From the NCBI RefSeq assembly GCF_002214565.1, contig NZ_CP015106.1, positions 1,736,001-1,800,000 of the forward strand: DNA of 64,000 bases, written 5' to 3'. Below are positions 1 to 35,049 of this stretch, piece after piece. A program made the translations under genes and the position numbers. Below the pieces are notes generated by a model. That model did not search any database. It saw only the letters and a program-made list of their open reading frames with translations, and was not told where the DNA came from. Position 1 is the stretch's first letter; every line of letters begins with the position of its first letter. This DNA is from Thermococcus radiotolerans (GTDB lineage Archaea > Methanobacteriota_B > Thermococci > Thermococcales > Thermococcaceae).

Positions 1-1920
1 TGAAACTGAGCCCGTCGGCGGGCAGGTCGTGGTCATTCCGTTCCTGACCCCAAACCTCTTGACTTCCTCGGCCAGCTCGTCCCAGGGAAGGCTCCAAATC
101 TCGCGGTGGTAGTAGCCTTCGACCGGGAGTTCGCCGTCTTTGTATGCAGACTTCTCGTAGAGCGGGAAGGGTCCGCGCTTTTTGGCGGCCTCGACTGAGT
201 ATTTGTAGGCGTAGAACGTGAGGTACTCGGTGGCCTTCCTCATGAAGTCGTAGCCCTCTTTGCTGTTGTATGCTATGCCGAGCTTGAATAGCGCATCGGC
301 GAGACCCATTATTCCAACCCCGATGCGCCTCGTCAGCTTGGTGTTGCGGTCTATCTCCGGCAGCGGGAACTTGTTGACGTCTATGGCGTTGTCGAGGTAC
401 TTGGCGACCTTCTGAATGACATAGGCGTACTCGTCCCAGTCGAAGTATGGCTTGCCTTCCTCGTCGTACTTCACGAACTTTGCGAGGTTTATGCTCGCTA
501 AATTGCACGATTCGTAGTCGTAGAGCGGCTCTTCTCCGCATGGGTTGGTCGCACGGATTTTTTCGCCCTTTGCGGGCTCAAGAACGTTCCTCTTGTTGAT
601 AACGTCGAAGAACACCACACCGGGGTCTGCCTTCGCCCATGCCATGTAGGCGAGCTCCTCGAATAGGCTCTTGGGGTCTATCTCCTTGACCCTCTCGCCG
701 GTCCTCGGGTTGACGAGCGGGTAGCGCTTGCCTTCTCTAAGGGCCTCCCAGAAGTCGGCCCATATTCCGACGCTGATGTTGAAGTTGCTGAGCACGTTGG
801 TCCCGATGTTCTTCTCCTTGGCGTGGATGAACTTCTCTATGTCCGGGTGCCAGACCTCGAGGATGCCCATGTTCGCTCCGCGCCTTACGCCGCCCTGCTT
901 GATGACGTCGCTGACGGCGTCGATGAGGTGCATGAAGGAAACGGGACCGCTCGCGGCTCCGGTGGTGGTTCCTACGAGGTCTCCCTCCGGGCGGAGCTTC
1001 GAGAAGTTCAAACCGGTTCCGCCGCCCATCTTCTGTATCATGGCAACGTCATGGGCCGCCTTCATTATGCTCTCCATGTCGTCCTCTATCGGCACGACGA
1101 AGCACGCCGAGAGCATGCCGAGCGGCCTGCCGGAGTTGATGAGCGCCGGCGTGTTCGGCATGAATACCTGGCTCGTCATCAGCCTGAAGTACTCCTCCAC
1201 CTCGTCCTCGTAGCGGTCGAAGGCGCCGTTTTCGAGCATCTTTATTACATCGTCTATTGGAACCTTCATCTGGCCCTTCTCGGCCAGCTCGCGGTAGAGG
1301 TTGAGGAGCCTCTCGAAGTGGTACCTGTTGAGCTTGAACCTTCCGATGGAGAGCTTCCCCTCGTACTCGTCGAGGGTTCTCAAGTACTCCTCCACCCTGC
1401 TCAAGTCCTGCTCATGGTTTCCGTCCCTATCAAAAATCCTCTCGTCGTAGAGCAGGTCAGGGATGACCGAGAGAACGGCGACGCGCTCGAAGAGCTCCCT
1501 GGGGCTCTCAATTATCTCTCCCTTCTCGTTCTTTATCAGGTAGCGGGAAGCCAGAACGCGGAGGGCGTTGATGGAGAAGCGCTTGTCTATCTCGTCCAGC
1601 TTGTCCTTGTTGAGGATTTTCTTCTTCTCTTCACGAATCTCGGCCTTCTTCTTGCGGTAGAGGATGTAGGCCTTTGCAACATCGAAGAGGCCTGCGCGCA
1701 TGAGTTCAAGCTCGACTATATCCTGAATGTTCTCTATGTGTGGGGTTTGACCGTCGTAGAGTTCGTTGACCCTCCTGACGACCCTTCTAACCACCTTGTT
1801 GAGGAGCTTCTCGTCGCGGACGCCGACTTCAAGCATTGCCCTTTGTATAGCCCATTTTATACGGTCTTTATCGAACGGGACAATTCTGCCGTCCCTTTTC
1901 ATCACTTTTTCAACCGGCAT
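1..1920 (-). CDS. nrdJ: Adenosylcobalamin-dependent ribonucleotide reductase, class II (N-terminal 640 codons)
   Basis: Reduces ribonucleotides to deoxyribonucleotides using coenzyme B12. The reading frame starts at an ATG ending at 1920, behind AGGGGTG, and is still open at the left window edge, so only the first 640 codons are visible. The N-terminus (MPVEKVMKRDGRIVPFD) is an ATP-cone allosteric domain. The catalytic barrel follows, with a MGGGTGLNFSKLRP segment, a GGVRRGANMG segment and the active-site NPCGEEPLYDYESCNLASIN segment. The visible part ends in TTTCPPTGSVS. Pyrococcus homologues often carry inteins in this gene, but none is present in the visible part. A 15-nt palindromic element shared with the nrdD promoter lies about 170 nt upstream. 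The plus-strand open frames over this region are shadows. Confidence 0.95.
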   Translation of the reverse strand, partial: MPVEKVMKRDGRIVPFDKDRIKWAIQRAMLEVGVRDEKLLNKVVRRVVRRVNELYDGQTPHIENIQDIVELELMRAGLFDVAKAYILYRKKKAEIREEKKKILNKDKLDEIDKRFSINALRVLASRYLIKNEKGEIIESPRELFERVAVLSVIPDLLYDERIFDRDGNHEQDLSRVEEYLRTLDEYEGKLSIGRFKLNRYHFERLLNLYRELAEKGQMKVPIDDVIKMLENGAFDRYEDEVEEYFRLMTSQVFMPNTPALINSGRPLGMLSACFVVPIEDDMESIMKAAHDVAMIQKMGGGTGLNFSKLRPEGDLVGTTTGAASGPVSFMHLIDAVSDVIKQGGVRRGANMGILEVWHPDIEKFIHAKEKNIGTNVLSNFNISVGIWADFWEALREGKRYPLVNPRTGERVKEIDPKSLFEELAYMAWAKADPGVVFFDVINKRNVLEPAKGEKIRATNPCGEEPLYDYESCNLASINLAKFVKYDEEGKPYFDWDEYAYVIQKVAKYLDNAIDVNKFPLPEIDRNTKLTRRIGVGIMGLADALFKLGIAYNSKEGYDFMRKATEYLTFYAYKYSVEAAKKRGPFPLYEKSAYKDGELPVEGYYHREIWSLPWDELAEEVKRFGVRNGMTTTCPPTGSVS

Positions 1921-29068: not shown

Positions 29069-30208
29069 TCACTCCACGAAGGGATTCTCAAAGCTCCTCA
29101 CGACCTCGAAGACTTCTGGGCGCATCATGTACTCCGGCGGCTGTTCTCCAGTCATTATCATCTTTCTGAGCTTAGTGCCACTTATGTGGACGTGGAATTC
29201 TTTGTCATGGGGGCAGATCTTCGCGTTGACCATGCCGCCGCACTTCCTGCAGTAGAAGGACTCGCGGATGAACATCGGGGTTATTCCCAGGTCCGGGAAC
29301 TCTCCAAAGAGGTCCCATGCCTCGTAGGGGCCGTAGTAGTCTCCAACGCCCGCATGGTCCCTTCCGACTATGAAGTGCGTCGCACCGAAGTTCTTCCTCA
29401 TTATCGCGTGGTGAATGGCTTCCCTGGGCCCAGCATAGCGCATCTCGTAGCGGACGGTCGCTAGCGTCGCAGCATCCTTAGGATAGTAGTGCTCGAAGAG
29501 CGTCTCATAGGCCTTGATTATGACTTCGTCCCTGTAGTCGCCCTTCTTCTTCCTTCCGAGAACAGGGTTGATGAAGAGGCCATCGACGAAGGTAAGGGCA
29601 GCTTTCTGGACATACTCATGGCCGAGATGGGGCACGTTTCTGGTCTGGAAGGCAACTATCGTCTTCCACCCGCGCTCCTTGAAGAGAACCCTAGTCTCTA
29701 CAGGCCTGAGAGTGTACTTGGCGAAGGGGTTCGGGAGCTCGTTGAGGAGCTCTATCTCCCCACCGACGAGGTAGTCCCCCATGTTCATGACCCTGGCGAC
29801 TCCCGGGTGGTTGAGATCATCTGTCTTGAAGACCTTTACCGCAAATTCCCTCTTGTCGTAGGTGTAAATCTCCTCCACATGCATCCTCGCTATCGGCAGA
29901 TCGTCGTAGTACAGCAGTATCGCATCGCCTTCGTCGAAGGTCTTCTCCCTCACGTCGAGCACTATCGGAATCGTCCAGGGCGTGTCGTCGCTCAGGCGCA
30001 TGTGATCGAGGACGCTCTCGAAGTCGTCGCTCGTCAGGAAGCCCTTGAGCGGTGAGTAAACGCCGTGGGCAATGTTCTCAAGGTCTATGGCCCTTCCATG
30101 CTCAATCTGGACGTGGGGGTATTCTTTCTGCTCGCTCAGAATCCTCTCACGGGTTCTCTCGGCAACGAGCCTTCTGACGAGCCTTCCGCCGTGCGGCTTT
30201 GAAACCAT
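29069..30208 (-). CDS. sat: Sulfate adenylyltransferase (ATP sulfurylase)
   Basis: A 379-residue enzyme that makes APS from ATP and sulfate. The catalytic VAFQTRNVPHLGHEY (QxRNxxHxxH) lies near residue 190 and the second nucleotide motif VGRDHAGVGDYYG near 280. A cysteine and histidine zinc site (FYCRKCGGMVNAKICPHD) lies near residue 325, followed by ISGTKLRKMI. ATG behind GAGGTGATACC, 25 nt after the RHH regulator. Length and motifs match archaeal Sat. Confidence 0.96.
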   Translation of the reverse strand: MVSKPHGGRLVRRLVAERTRERILSEQKEYPHVQIEHGRAIDLENIAHGVYSPLKGFLTSDDFESVLDHMRLSDDTPWTIPIVLDVREKTFDEGDAILLYYDDLPIARMHVEEIYTYDKREFAVKVFKTDDLNHPGVARVMNMGDYLVGGEIELLNELPNPFAKYTLRPVETRVLFKERGWKTIVAFQTRNVPHLGHEYVQKAALTFVDGLFINPVLGRKKKGDYRDEVIIKAYETLFEHYYPKDAATLATVRYEMRYAGPREAIHHAIMRKNFGATHFIVGRDHAGVGDYYGPYEAWDLFGEFPDLGITPMFIRESFYCRKCGGMVNAKICPHDKEFHVHISGTKLRKMIMTGEQPPEYMMRPEVFEVVRSFENPFVE

Positions 30209-30557: not shown

Positions 30558-32924
30558 TTAACCCCCGCTACCAGTACCAGATAGTACATCCGAGATCCGG
30601 AAGACCCCCCTGTCAAGTACTGCTCTTCTCTGGGTGTAAATGTATCTAATAACAACGCTTCCGTTGATGTCTACAGGGAGAACGAACTCCTCCTTCCCTT
30701 TAACACCGTACCACTTCTTGAACAGCAGCGTGCCGTTATCTAGATATCCATAAATTCCAATTCCCGTCCCGGTGTTGTTGGTGAACCTGAGCAGAACGGA
30801 TCCGTTTTCCGAAGTAACAACCACGTTTGGATGCTCAAACCGGAATATCTTGATATACCCGCCGTCCGAATAAACCTCCGTGAAGTTTGGATGGTCATTC
30901 GTAAACATCAGCTTGGCGAGGGGTGTCTCAAAGGCTTTCCCGTTCATCAACACGGCGTAGCCATAGTTGAGGTTAAGGTAAACGTAGGCATCGGCGTTCG
31001 GCTTGCCTGTGAGAGTCACATTCTCCACGGATTTCCCTCTCTCAACGAAGACTTCGCGGGGGATCAGTATCGCGCCACCAGTGTTAACCTGGACACTCCA
31101 GGAGCCCTCTTTGGGAACTGCCATGATGGAGTAGGGTCCCGCTGAGAACAAAAGCATTCCTCCCATGGATGACACTAGCGGCATAGGTACCATCGCATAC
31201 TCTCTGGGAGAAGCGTCTGCCGTCTCAAGTACAGCCTCAAACTTCATAATGGTATCATAGGAGACTATGACGTAATCTACACCCAGATTCATGAGATCTT
31301 TGTTTGTTTTAATCCCGAGATAGTATTGAGCCACCCATTTACTGACTCCTCCCTGGGCTACAGGCGCTCTCCCAGCGAAGTAAGTGACCCAGTGCCCCTG
31401 GTCCCACCACGTCAAAACTATATCATTTATATTTGAGTGCTCCCCGAGGTAGGTAAGGGCGTTATCCCATCCTTCATTTGTAATTGGTCTTATTCCTTTT
31501 GTTGTCCAGAAGCCTTGAAACGCAGTTGTGAGGGGAATTGAAAGTAGAATGATGGTGAGGACAACTGTGCCAAATTTTTTGGACTCGACTTTTGGTGATG
31601 TCATCTCGTATGCCCTCATGAGTCCTATTCCAGCCATAACTGCGACTGCAAGTGAGCCAATAAAGAGGAACCTCGTCCACAATATCACCATGGGAATTGC
31701 AATTAACGCCAGCCCTAGGAGTACAAAGTCTCGTATTGTTGTCTTTCTAGGAAGGAACGTCAGGAAGAAGGCTGGCGTAATGAAAATAGCTATTCCATAT
31801 GCTTTCCAGAGATCGTTGAGTGTTGTTCTTTGGGTCTCCACAATTTCCCATGTTGGAAACAGCTCTTTTACTAAATTGTCTATTCTTCCATAATACTTGA
31901 TCCCAATCCAGAAAAAGATGATAACTCCAATCCCAACGATTATCGCTTTTTGTTTCGTCTCTTTTATAAATCTTGAAAGAATGAACAGCAGGATTATTGC
32001 TACAATGGAGCTGGGAACTGCATACTTCAGATATACCAGGAGAAATGCATCCTTGATGAACCCGAACTGAAGCCCGAACTCCTCAGCAAACTTCTGTCCT
32101 AACCACTCTGTTTCTCCGACCATGCCGTATCCAAAGCGTCCTCCAAACGCATTGGCTAGAATCGCTCCAACAATCGTGGCAATTACGAGCATAATAGCAT
32201 CGATAAATTCTCTCTTTCTTTCAAGCAAAAATGCTCCAACTGCAAGGAAGAGGGCACTGCCAAGCAGAAATCCGAATATCGGGTAATACGCCTGCCAGAA
32301 GATGGCGGAGAAACCACTAGCGAGGGCAGGTATTAGGTAGAACACTAGCCTCTTGTATCTCCATTCCTCACTCTTCTTGGAGAGTGCTAATGCAATCCCA
32401 AACAGCGCCACACTGTACCAGAAGAGCATGTAGTTGTCTCCTCTGTAATAGCCTGCCATCGAGCGGAAGACGTGGCCGAAAAGAACCGCCAGAAAGAACG
32501 CCGAAAGAAAAGCCTCCTTTTTCCCATAGAGTTTCAGCATGACAAGATACGTGAATACTACGGTAAGAACCCCAAAAATAACCGGCGTTATTCTAAATGA
32601 GTTGTAGAGGGAAACCCCAAAGACCGAGAGAAACTTGTAAACGTAAGCCGGGGTCATCCAGAGGCCGAGGGGATGGAAGTGATGTATCTGGAATCCCCAG
32701 GGTCCAGTGGCGTAGGGGAAGAAATTCACCCACTCCCCCTTCTCCAGCGCATACCTGATGTAGGCTAAGTGAAAATACGGATCATAGCCGAGGAGGTACT
32801 TAAATCGCATCGGGAGGAGTCTAATGGCCGAAGCTATAGCGATGAGAATCGGGAGGGCATACTTTGGGGTTAATATCAGCTCGTAGGCTTTCAGCAGCTT
32901 TGCCTTAACCTCTTGAACTTCCAT
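30558..32924 (-). CDS. aglB: Oligosaccharyltransferase, STT3/AglB
   Basis: A 788-residue enzyme that transfers lipid-linked glycan to asparagine on the outer face of the membrane. About 13 membrane helices span residues 20-460, with the first acidic motif in LLGYDPYFHLAYIRYA and a second in GYYRGDNYMLFWY. The catalytic-domain signature WWDQGHW is near residue 505 and the DxxMK-type motif (SYDTIMKF) near 555. A beta-rich C-terminal domain follows. Thermococcales may carry more than one AglB, and which paralogue this is cannot be told here. It starts 6 nt beyond the end of the upstream nucleotidyltransferase gene, so the two are probably co-transcribed. Confidence 0.94.
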   Translation of the reverse strand: MEVQEVKAKLLKAYELILTPKYALPILIAIASAIRLLPMRFKYLLGYDPYFHLAYIRYALEKGEWVNFFPYATGPWGFQIHHFHPLGLWMTPAYVYKFLSVFGVSLYNSFRITPVIFGVLTVVFTYLVMLKLYGKKEAFLSAFFLAVLFGHVFRSMAGYYRGDNYMLFWYSVALFGIALALSKKSEEWRYKRLVFYLIPALASGFSAIFWQAYYPIFGFLLGSALFLAVGAFLLERKREFIDAIMLVIATIVGAILANAFGGRFGYGMVGETEWLGQKFAEEFGLQFGFIKDAFLLVYLKYAVPSSIVAIILLFILSRFIKETKQKAIIVGIGVIIFFWIGIKYYGRIDNLVKELFPTWEIVETQRTTLNDLWKAYGIAIFITPAFFLTFLPRKTTIRDFVLLGLALIAIPMVILWTRFLFIGSLAVAVMAGIGLMRAYEMTSPKVESKKFGTVVLTIILLSIPLTTAFQGFWTTKGIRPITNEGWDNALTYLGEHSNINDIVLTWWDQGHWVTYFAGRAPVAQGGVSKWVAQYYLGIKTNKDLMNLGVDYVIVSYDTIMKFEAVLETADASPREYAMVPMPLVSSMGGMLLFSAGPYSIMAVPKEGSWSVQVNTGGAILIPREVFVERGKSVENVTLTGKPNADAYVYLNLNYGYAVLMNGKAFETPLAKLMFTNDHPNFTEVYSDGGYIKIFRFEHPNVVVTSENGSVLLRFTNNTGTGIGIYGYLDNGTLLFKKWYGVKGKEEFVLPVDINGSVVIRYIYTQRRAVLDRGVFRISDVLSGTGSGG

Positions 32925-32930
32925 CCTCCC

Positions 32931-33926
32931 TCACTCCCCCCTCTGTATCTTGGCGTGCCCTCCAACGAGGCTCTTTCTCAGCTCGAGGTTCCTTATCTCG
33001 CACTTCTCGTCGATAATGGAGCGCCATATCGTGGAGTTCCTTATGACAGTGCTCCTGAAGACTATGGAGTCGCTTATGTCGGAGTTCTCTATGACGCAGT
33101 CCTCACCGATGTAGGCGTAGGGACCGATCATCGACCGTCCTAGTATCTTTGCCCCCCTCTTTATGACCACCGGCGGGATTATCTTCGCGTAGGGGCTTAT
33201 CTGGATCTCCTCCACGTGACTCTCCTTCAGGAGCGTCTTCAGGGCCTCTAGATAGCTGTCCGCACTTCCTATGTCATACCAGTACTCTGAAAAGCGGTAG
33301 GCCCTTATCTCCTCCCCTTTTCCGAGGAGCCACTGGAGGAAGTAGCCGGGGGAGTCGCGGTTTCCGTTGGAGAGGTACTCATCTATGCGCTCCATAATCC
33401 CCTTGGGGAAAACGTAGACGCCGGTGCTCACGAGGGTTGATCTCGGCTCGGCGGGCTTTTCCTGGAAAGAGATGACCCTCTCCCCCTCGAGAACCACGAC
33501 ACCGTAGCGCTTGGCCAGCTCCAGATCGCCCACATCGTAGACTGCTATGAGCGTCTTCCCGTCGTAAGAGTTCAAGAATTCCCGCAGTGAGAACGAGAAG
33601 AGGTTGTCTCCGGCTATGACCAGGTAGTCGTCGGGACCGAGCTCATCCAGCGCCTTTTTCAGCGCTCCTATGGTTCCGAGCTTCTCATCTTCGTGGAGGG
33701 TCTCCTCGACTATCATCCCGACGCCGTATTTTTCGGCGTACGGCCTGAAGTGAGCCTCAAAGAACCGATTGGTTGATACGTACGTCTCCAGGCCTAACCC
33801 ATCGACCTTTTCTAGGATGTACTCCAGTATCACCCTGTCCCCGACGGGGAGAAGGGCCTTTGGGTTGTCCTTCGTTATTGGCCAGAGCCGGGTTGCGTAA
33901 CCTCCCGCCATGATTAGAACTTTCAT
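32931..33926 (-). CDS. Sugar-phosphate nucleotidyltransferase with beta-helix C-terminus
   Basis: A 331-residue enzyme starting at the ATG at 33926 behind GGTGGGAGG. The signature KVLIMAGGYATRLWPITKDNPKALLPV marks the NTP-sugar pyrophosphorylase family (key: GGYATRLWP and PKALLPV), with LVIAGDNLFSF. Hexapeptide repeats from about residue 240 form a left-handed beta-helix. The sugar and nucleotide are not determined. It probably supplies a nucleotide sugar for N-glycan assembly with aglB. An upstream extension of the frame lacks a ribosome site. Confidence 0.88.
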   Translation of the reverse strand: MKVLIMAGGYATRLWPITKDNPKALLPVGDRVILEYILEKVDGLGLETYVSTNRFFEAHFRPYAEKYGVGMIVEETLHEDEKLGTIGALKKALDELGPDDYLVIAGDNLFSFSLREFLNSYDGKTLIAVYDVGDLELAKRYGVVVLEGERVISFQEKPAEPRSTLVSTGVYVFPKGIMERIDEYLSNGNRDSPGYFLQWLLGKGEEIRAYRFSEYWYDIGSADSYLEALKTLLKESHVEEIQISPYAKIIPPVVIKRGAKILGRSMIGPYAYIGEDCVIENSDISDSIVFRSTVIRNSTIWRSIIDEKCEIRNLELRKSLVGGHAKIQRGE

Positions 33927-34012
33927 TCCTCCCACCTTACCAGTTTTCACGCTGAAAATGATACGCCCAAATGTATTTAAATTATTTCGTTTCATCAAGG
34001 GTGGTGGTAGGA

Positions 34013-34694
34013 ATGAAGGTTCTGGTTACGGGCGGTGCAGGGTTCATAGGCTCCCATCTGGTTGACAGGTTAATGGAAGATGGTCACGAAGTCAGGGTTC
34101 TCGATGACCTGAGCGCTGGCACCCTCGACAATATGAAGCGCTGGTTGAATCACGAGAGGTTTGAGTTCATAGAGGGGGATATGAGGGACGCTGAAACCGT
34201 TGAGAAGGCCGTTGATGGAACGAGGTTGTTTTTCACCTCGCCGCAAATCTGGAGGTTAGAATAGGCTATCAGAGCCCGGAACTGCTCTACGAGACCAACG
34301 TTTTAATAACGTATAACCTCCTGAACGCCATGAAGGATTCCGGCGTTAAATACCTCGTCTTCACCTCCTCATCGACCGTCTACGGGGACGCCTCCACATC
34401 TTCGAAGCGTTTAAGAAGGAGAACAAGCGGGTCGACTTCTACAACCTCGGCAACGACGACTGGATAACCGTTAGGGAGATAGTCGAGATAGTCAGCGAGG
34501 AAATGAAGCTAAAGCCTGTCTTCAGATTCACCGGAGGCGTCGACGGCGGCCGCGGCTGGAAGGGCGACGTCAAGTTCATGCGCCTGAGCATAGAGAAGGC
34601 GAAGAAAACGGGCTGGAGGCCAAAGCTTGACAGCTATGAGGCCGTAAGAAGAACGGTTGGGGAGCTCCTGCAAACGGCTAAGGCAGAAGAATAG
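34013..34694 (+). pseudogene. NAD-dependent sugar epimerase/dehydratase (GalE-like), frameshifted and internally deleted
   Basis: Starts as a normal extended SDR ([20 protein letters not shown]). At about 34222-34232 a one-base change shifts the frame: the expected [23 protein letters not shown] continues in another frame (key: [14 protein letters not shown]). It reads on through YLVFTSSSTVYGDAS and then jumps near 34392 to HIFEAFKKENKRVDFYNLGNDDW and the normal C-terminus (WRPKLDSYEAVRRTVGELL). About 100 codons, including the catalytic YxxxK, are missing. Divergent from the nucleotidyltransferase gene. Its stop abuts the 3' end of the candidate ncRNA. Confidence 0.88.
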
Positions 34695-34856
34695 TGAGGA
34701 GCACCATGCGAAAGGGGCCGGAGTGAAGTTCCACTCCTTTCAAACCGTCCCCTACAATTGTAGCCTCACGTTCCGTTATGGTCCATGAAACCACTCGGGT
34801 CCGGTTTGTCTTGGGGTGAAGCTTTCGCTTCAGTCTCTTCCGCACAGCACTCCTCA
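34695..34856 (-). ncRNA. Candidate structured non-coding RNA, 162 nt
   Basis: On the minus strand the first 20 nt (34856-34837) pair with the last 20 (34714-34695) without a break. Fifteen are Watson-Crick pairs and five are G-U. In a plus-strand transcript those five would be A-C mismatches, so the minus strand is the functional one. Inside are a UGAAGC-GAAA-GCUUCA hairpin (tetraloop), a seven-base CAAACCG/CGGUUUG helix, and GGAGUG/CACUCC. A consensus TATA box at 34878-34885 lies 25 nt upstream. A 59-codon frame crosses it but has no ATG or ribosome site. It does not look like tRNA, 5S, SRP or RNase P RNA. It may be one of the stable small RNAs known from Pyrococcus, or new. Confidence 0.82.
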
Positions 34857-34877
34857 AAGGCTTATAGGTGCTTTAAC

Positions 34878-34890
34878 TATATAAAGCTTT
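34878..34890 (-). promoter_or_regulatory. TATA box and BRE of the candidate ncRNA
   Basis: On the minus strand AAAGC (BRE-like, 34890-34886) is followed by TTTATATA (34885-34878), the exact archaeal consensus. It is centred 25 nt before the first base of the RNA's closing helix. No gene other than the ncRNA lies downstream within range. Confidence 0.75.
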
Positions 34891-35049
34891 GCTTTTATCT
34901 AGTGCAAAATTTTTTAGCAACTTTTCGAAATAACTTCAAGAAACCATCGCCTCAATACAGATGTTGCAGTTTTATGAAGGATTGAGGGCCTCACTCAGCG
35001 TGCAGACGTGGTTCCACACTTCGGAGTTATCCCACAGCTTACCGAAAAC

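Follow-up and report, generated by a model that had tools for sequence, protein, structure and literature searches.

In Thermococcus radiotolerans, a 162-nt sequence with ends that pair on the minus strand and a TATA-like box in front of it raises the question of whether it is the gene of a structured RNA and, if so, to which RNA class it belongs and which cellular process it would serve. The stretch analysed here, referred to as the window, comprises 64,000 nt of contig NZ_CP015106.1. A preliminary description, made from the letters of the window alone, had proposed an unannotated structured noncoding RNA (ncRNA) with its own promoter beside tRNA genes. The RNA gene comprises the following parts.

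34695..34856, minus strand: body of the structured ncRNA gene, 162 nt, predicted four-way junction (fold z -7.69; 158.8 bits with covariance model R1; covariation)
34832..34856, minus strand: 5' strand of the closing helix P1, 25 positions with a mismatch at position 23
34695..34719, minus strand: 3' strand of P1, placed by the comparative alignment
34818..34831, minus strand: hairpin P2, GAAGC-GAAA-GCUUC, nearly invariant (pairing in 98% of cells, two-sided changes absent)
34741..34808, minus strand: long arm P3, composed of CAAACCG/CGGUUUG, CCC/GGG, and an apical stem, with two-sided changes in all three stems
34720..34737, minus strand: hairpin P4, GGAGUGGAACUUCACUCC, with the helix GGAGUG/CACUCC (pairing in 85% of cells, two-sided changes absent)
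34684..34694, minus strand: conserved pyrimidine-rich 3' flank of the CUAUUCUUC type, aligned in most copies

Fold of the RNA and its comparative support

The minimum-energy fold of the minus strand reaches -83.2 kcal/mol, compared with a mean of -49.6 kcal/mol for dinucleotide shuffles (z -7.69), and none of 200 shuffles equals it; the plus strand folds less well, at -67.1 kcal/mol (z -4.46). The coordinates of the 162-nt sequence hold as originally placed, and the 20 nt at its two ends pair with each other uninterrupted, with G-U on the minus strand at five of these 20 pairs (17/152, 12/157, 11/158, 9/160, and 8/161; alignment A2). The internal helices named in the preliminary description, UGAAGC-GAAA-GCUUCA, CAAACCG/CGGUUUG, and GGAGUG/CACUCC, are all present in the minimum-energy fold. 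In the comparative data the closing helix lengthens to 25 positions and joins three arms at a four-way junction.

Across 21 copies, two-sided changes that keep the pair occur at 24 of the 57 pairs of the four-way-junction fold. The proportion of paired cells is 90.7% in the consensus fold vs 37-48% when the partners are slid by one to three columns, and not one of 500 shuffles attains the observed paired cells, two-sided changes, or covariation score; the number of further pair types does not stand out (103/500 shuffles). By helix, two-sided changes affect 10 of the 24 counted pairs of P1, in which 93% of cells are paired, and, within P3, 6/7 pairs of CAAACCG/CGGUUUG, 1/3 of CCC/GGG, and 7/12 of the apical stem, while P2 and P4 are without covariation of their own because they are conserved in sequence. 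Substitutions in the homologues preserve the helices. Non-Watson-Crick pairs are mostly wobbles on the RNA strand, with G-U outnumbering A-C by 176 to 50 over all helices and by 96 to 14 in the closing helix, in agreement with the earlier proposal of an RNA-level, strand-specific helix.

Copies are mostly 155-181 nt long, and in folds computed at 85 C the closing helix remains paired in nearly all of them. In other genera the central arm is longer, with the closing helix and P2 unchanged. A rod fold pairing P2 with P4, which a ribosum-scored consensus fold draws for some lineages, was rejected on its computed probability of at most 0.03 at the pairs tested (21 copies, 37 or 85 C). The fold, the homologues, the kept helices, and the strand-specific wobbles all support the reading as an RNA gene, and on this comparative evidence the fold is very probably conserved and the locus very probably the gene of a real RNA family.

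The promoter and the relation to known RNA classes

Upstream of the gene body, three elements can be recognised.

34878..34885, minus strand: TATA box TTTATATA, flanked by BRE-like sequence; its distance from the helix is constant in homologues
34888..34909, minus strand: dyad TTTTGC-N11-GCAAA, adjoining the TATA box upstream; sole match in the 1.87-Mb genome, with an expectation of 0.10 in the window
34923..34937, minus strand: second upstream dyad, GAAGTTATTTCGAAA; sole exact match in the genome

The box lies where the preliminary description had placed it, and the spacing of "exactly 25 nt" stands as the approximate distance from the centre of the box to the start of the helix at 34856, but 21 nt lie between the box itself and the helix. 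In most copies, 26-27 nt separate TATATA from the start of the helix. Conservation reaches well past the TATA box: about 85 bp of upstream sequence is conserved, comprising the GAAATTATTTC dyad, the TTTTGC-N11-GCAAA dyad, the BRE/TATA, whose spacing is fixed, and a short stretch around the initiator. The TTTTGC-N11-GCAAA dyad is kept in most copies of genus g1, and the GAAGTTATTTCGAAA dyad in most copies of genus g1 as well as in the copy of g3. As judged from comparison of the loci, promoter and RNA are inherited as one unit, and since they stay together at changing locations, the gene appears to be autonomous. Because both upstream dyads are without another exact match in the genome, a regulator with a single target is suggested. 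The CUAUUCUUC-type flank, which overlaps the end of the convergent epimerase-type gene, is a possible 3' tail or end signal.

Comparison of positions 34600-35000 with Rfam 15, including HgcC, HgcE, HgcF, HgcG, and SscA, gave no match even at E 10, so that the RNA was previously uncatalogued there; within the window Rfam recognises tRNA genes only. At 11 homologous loci no Rfam match at or above gathering covers the RNA, and the one overlap is at chance level (SOX2OT, 18.7 bits vs a cut-off of 70, opposite strand, E 0.49). No published description of the RNA was found in the open-access literature searched. As it has neither an Rfam family nor a description in that literature, it would represent a new family of small structured archaeal RNA. 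We take the carrier genome G026 to be that of T. onnurineus NA1. A dRNA-seq paper on T. onnurineus reports 57 intergenic ncRNAs, 22 of which it gives as assigned (PMC5316973), and this RNA may be an unnamed entry among them.

Several known classes bear comparison with the RNA. Archaeal C/D and H/ACA guide RNAs are also small and stable, occur in the same organisms, and in some cases have their own promoters; in the window RNA, RUGAUGA is absent and a single CUGA lies at the P1/P2 border, the 3' end reads CCUCACUAUUCU with the ACA box absent, and no Rfam snoRNA match covers the RNA. A riboswitch or 5' leader would be at variance with the next downstream gene, which is convergent and ends within 120 nt of the RNA 3' end at 27 of 41 loci, including those of close relatives. 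Neither a guide-RNA box nor a same-strand downstream gene pointing to a known mechanism was found. Both the compensatory changes and the promoter at fixed spacing agree with an independently transcribed structured ncRNA.

Among such RNAs, HgcC (RF00062), the other Pyrococcus Hgc RNAs, and sRk48/52 of P. abyssi are likewise structured ncRNAs of Thermococcales with unknown function, several with their own promoter and some multi-copy, as in the present case, although the RNA described here matches neither RF00062 nor any other Rfam family. HgcC and sRk48/52 are described as located in or near OrfB/transposase sequences (PMC4247193, PMC3124441); this RNA, in contrast, is not in or near such sequences, save for one nearby TnpB-type gene in G016. 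SscA/sRk33 of P. furiosus and P. abyssi is intergenic, with a covariation-rich basal stem and a sequence-conserved apical stem (PMC3124441), and these three traits are shared by the present RNA. SscA is, however, reported as conserved across Thermococcales and has unstructured A/U-rich 3' stretches, whereas this RNA is patchy in distribution and closed end to end by the 25-position helix. As a separate observation, sub-threshold HgcC and sot0042 matches flank the RNA in G016 and lie outside it (L012:1832-2025, minus strand, and 908-1040, plus strand); they adjoin a gene that clusters with a TnpB/OrfB-type protein, and the observation includes the vicinity of the RNA at L073.

Distribution and genomic setting

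The RNA is single-copy in its own genome. DNA similarity identifies homologues in 34 of 94 Thermococcales genomes, and a covariance model built from the 21 copies gives matches in 39 of the 94 (35 of 74 genomes of good quality), representing each of the six genera sampled, with scores spanning 167 to 33 bits; homologues, whose alignment the preliminary description had called for, are present across Thermococcales. The same model gave no match outside Thermococcales in 115 genomes of the phylum. Some diverged copies may be missed, since searches of more than 40 genomes apply stricter filters. RNA-lacking genomes include those that we take to be T. kodakarensis, P. abyssi, and P. yayanosii.

Twenty AglB regions drawn from RNA-lacking genomes, these three included, contain no full copy, and a universal RNA diverged past detection was rejected after their examination, which yielded one weak match (E 0.68) corresponding to a deletion relic. 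Truncated relics lie beside aglB in three RNA-lacking genomes: in G022 (L115:12793-12904) the promoter and the RNA 3' end are joined through an internal deletion, and those in G060 (L110:4653-4724) and G062 (L111:9586-9637) retain the RNA 3' end. Because relics persist in these genomes, the patchy distribution reflects loss at least in part. G022 also carries, close to the remnant of an ATPase, a long and almost perfect inverted repeat (GACCCTACCTGTTTCAGGTAGG...; L115:13473-13578), which is possibly a small mobile element.

Duplicates are also found. G042 has two copies (L075:9827-9985 and L076:9624-9782), separated by 28 kb, that share one orientation and bracket the glycan island; they are potential recombination sites that could delete it. 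The copies are 100% identical over the 159-nt RNA body while their promoters differ, which suggests gene conversion. Tandem pairs of diverged copies occur in three genomes (G038, L070; G026, L071; G040, L072), where the second copy, of 155-156 nt and about 70% identity to the first, has its own TATA box and lies about 320 nt upstream of the first.

The neighbouring genes in the window are listed below.

33971..34694, plus strand: convergent NAD-dependent sugar epimerase/dehydratase-type gene (cluster 2), with its stop abutting the RNA 3' end
32931..33998, minus strand: sugar-1-phosphate nucleotidyltransferase (PF00483, 2e-41)
30558..32924, minus strand: STT3/AglB-type oligosaccharyltransferase (TIGR04154, 9e-20, below cut-off; PF02516, 5.5e-5, slightly below gathering)
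29093..29719, minus strand: ATP sulfurylase domain in the same gene cluster (PF01747, 2.6e-92, at G000:1765093-1765719)

The epimerase/dehydratase-type gene is broken into two frames here, but relatives such as L066 and L067 have it intact, with 331-335 aa. At 37 of 41 loci, at least one gene of N-glycan synthesis or sulfate activation (AglB-type oligosaccharyltransferase, sugar-nucleotide, or sulfate-activation) lies within 10 kb of the RNA. Recurring neighbours include sugar-1-phosphate nucleotidyltransferase, dTDP-glucose 4,6-dehydratase/epimerase, STT3/AglB-type oligosaccharyltransferase, ATP sulfurylase, APS kinase, a TauE-type transporter, phosphodiesterase, and DHH phosphoesterase; no protein-coding neighbour common to all loci was found. 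AAA/STAND-type ATPase and TnpB-type genes (clusters C8 and C45) are nearby in some loci. AglB starts divergently upstream of the RNA at nine loci, in most of them at a distance of about 200 nt. A gap of 9 nt separates the nucleotidyltransferase gene from the AglB gene in RNA-lacking G017, and since these genes abut there, the RNA gene sits at what is elsewhere an operon junction. In G014, aglB (C1:185558-187851) seems split, with adjacent matches to query positions 15-631 and 630-774.

Comparison of the genomes thus places the RNA gene in an island of AglB, sugar-nucleotide, and sulfate-activation genes, from which it is also lost. This N-glycosylation and sulfate-activation setting is probably the most informative feature of the locus, and it was absent from the preliminary description, which had stressed the position beside tRNA genes. 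The tRNA genes are real, but a tRNA pair is adjacent in a minority of loci, so that adjacency is not a property of the family, and tRNA linkage was rejected as a key feature.

Of the 39 RNA-carrying genomes, 37 have ATP sulfurylase, vs 22 of the 55 RNA-lacking ones (Fisher p 1.8e-8); among good-quality genomes the figures are 33 of 35 vs 20 of 39 (p 3.1e-5). When labels are permuted within genera, which controls kinship at the genus level only, p is about 1e-4; AglB of the same island, used as a control, shows no association with the RNA (p 0.33). In nine genomes (G013, G014, G026, G027, G029, G031, G033, G038, and G044), RNA and sulfurylase share a contig but are separated by over 100 kb, and simple linkage is therefore not the whole reason for the co-occurrence. 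Two RNA-carrying genomes, G036 and G078, are without ATP sulfurylase. The RNA is missing from over half of the genomes, and as many of these retain glycan genes, it is not needed for the glycan pathway.

Possible role and competing explanations

The account proposed here is that of an accessory structured RNA, transcribed independently, that acts in trans in the pathway for sulfated glycans, and the chance that this is the whole explanation is judged, from sequence comparison, to be about even. The RNA would form a stable, Thermococcales-restricted family transcribed from its own promoter; a dedicated regulator would bind the two upstream dyads and control its production; and the RNA would act in trans, probably as an RNP via the invariant P2 and P4 hairpins, so as to tune the sulfated surface-glycan pathway. 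The tie of a trans role to the glycan/sulfate pathway is tentative and somewhat doubtful, and any specific mechanism for such a role is more doubtful than that. One mechanism, with the RNA serving the biosynthesis of sulfated N-glycans as a dedicated regulator or RNP component that acts in trans, has an operator-controlled promoter, and is recurrently lost as surface glycans change, seems unlikely; in a variant of it, the RNA would possibly sense the sulfate-activation state.

It is possible, if short of probable, that the RNA is real and structured but has a general or defence-related function unrelated to glycans, being one of the accessory genes collected by a variable island. The patchy distribution, the relics, and the duplicate copies are traits of accessory genes, and the ATPase and TnpB-type genes of C8 and C45 lie close by in some loci; nevertheless, ATP sulfurylase co-occurs with the RNA even when unlinked, AglB of the same island shows no such association, and viral, plasmid, and phage collections gave no RNA match at the sensitivity used. 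An improbable explanation is a cis element, by which the gene and its promoter would insulate aglB or the sulfate operon from convergent read-through, or the reverse complement would be the 3' end of the convergent gene, with the RNA product inert. The close convergent stops, the divergent AglB at nine loci, the 9-nt spacing in RNA-lacking G017, and the retention of the 3' end in relics are in keeping with such an element. Insulation, however, requires neither two-sided compensatory changes in internal arms nor a G-U bias on the RNA strand, and the RNA occurs in several gene configurations, including loci of its own clade in which AglB is not the divergent neighbour.

A MITE-like miniature transposable element, with terminal inverted repeats starting TG and ending CA, is highly improbable. 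Although the termini read TGAGG...CCTCA, the model matches both the element and its reverse complement, presence is patchy, and duplicates exist, the own genome has one copy and the empty site in G015 is without target duplication. The mismatches of the repeats are G-U on one strand, the conserved promoter lies outside the repeats, and the identical bodies with different promoters in G042 resemble gene conversion rather than transposition. Membership among MITE or IS-derived elements was accordingly rejected on copy number, strand-asymmetric mismatches, and the lack of a clean target duplication.

With the RNA described here, archaea gain a well-supported structured RNA family. That the genomes taken as those of P. 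abyssi, P. yayanosii, and T. kodakarensis lack it may account for its not being reported by earlier screens in Pyrococcus and T. kodakarensis. No ncRNA dedicated to N-glycosylation in archaea is known to us, and the tie to ATP sulfurylase and the AglB island leads to a concrete hypothesis, open to test in carriers, that the RNA may serve surface sulfation.
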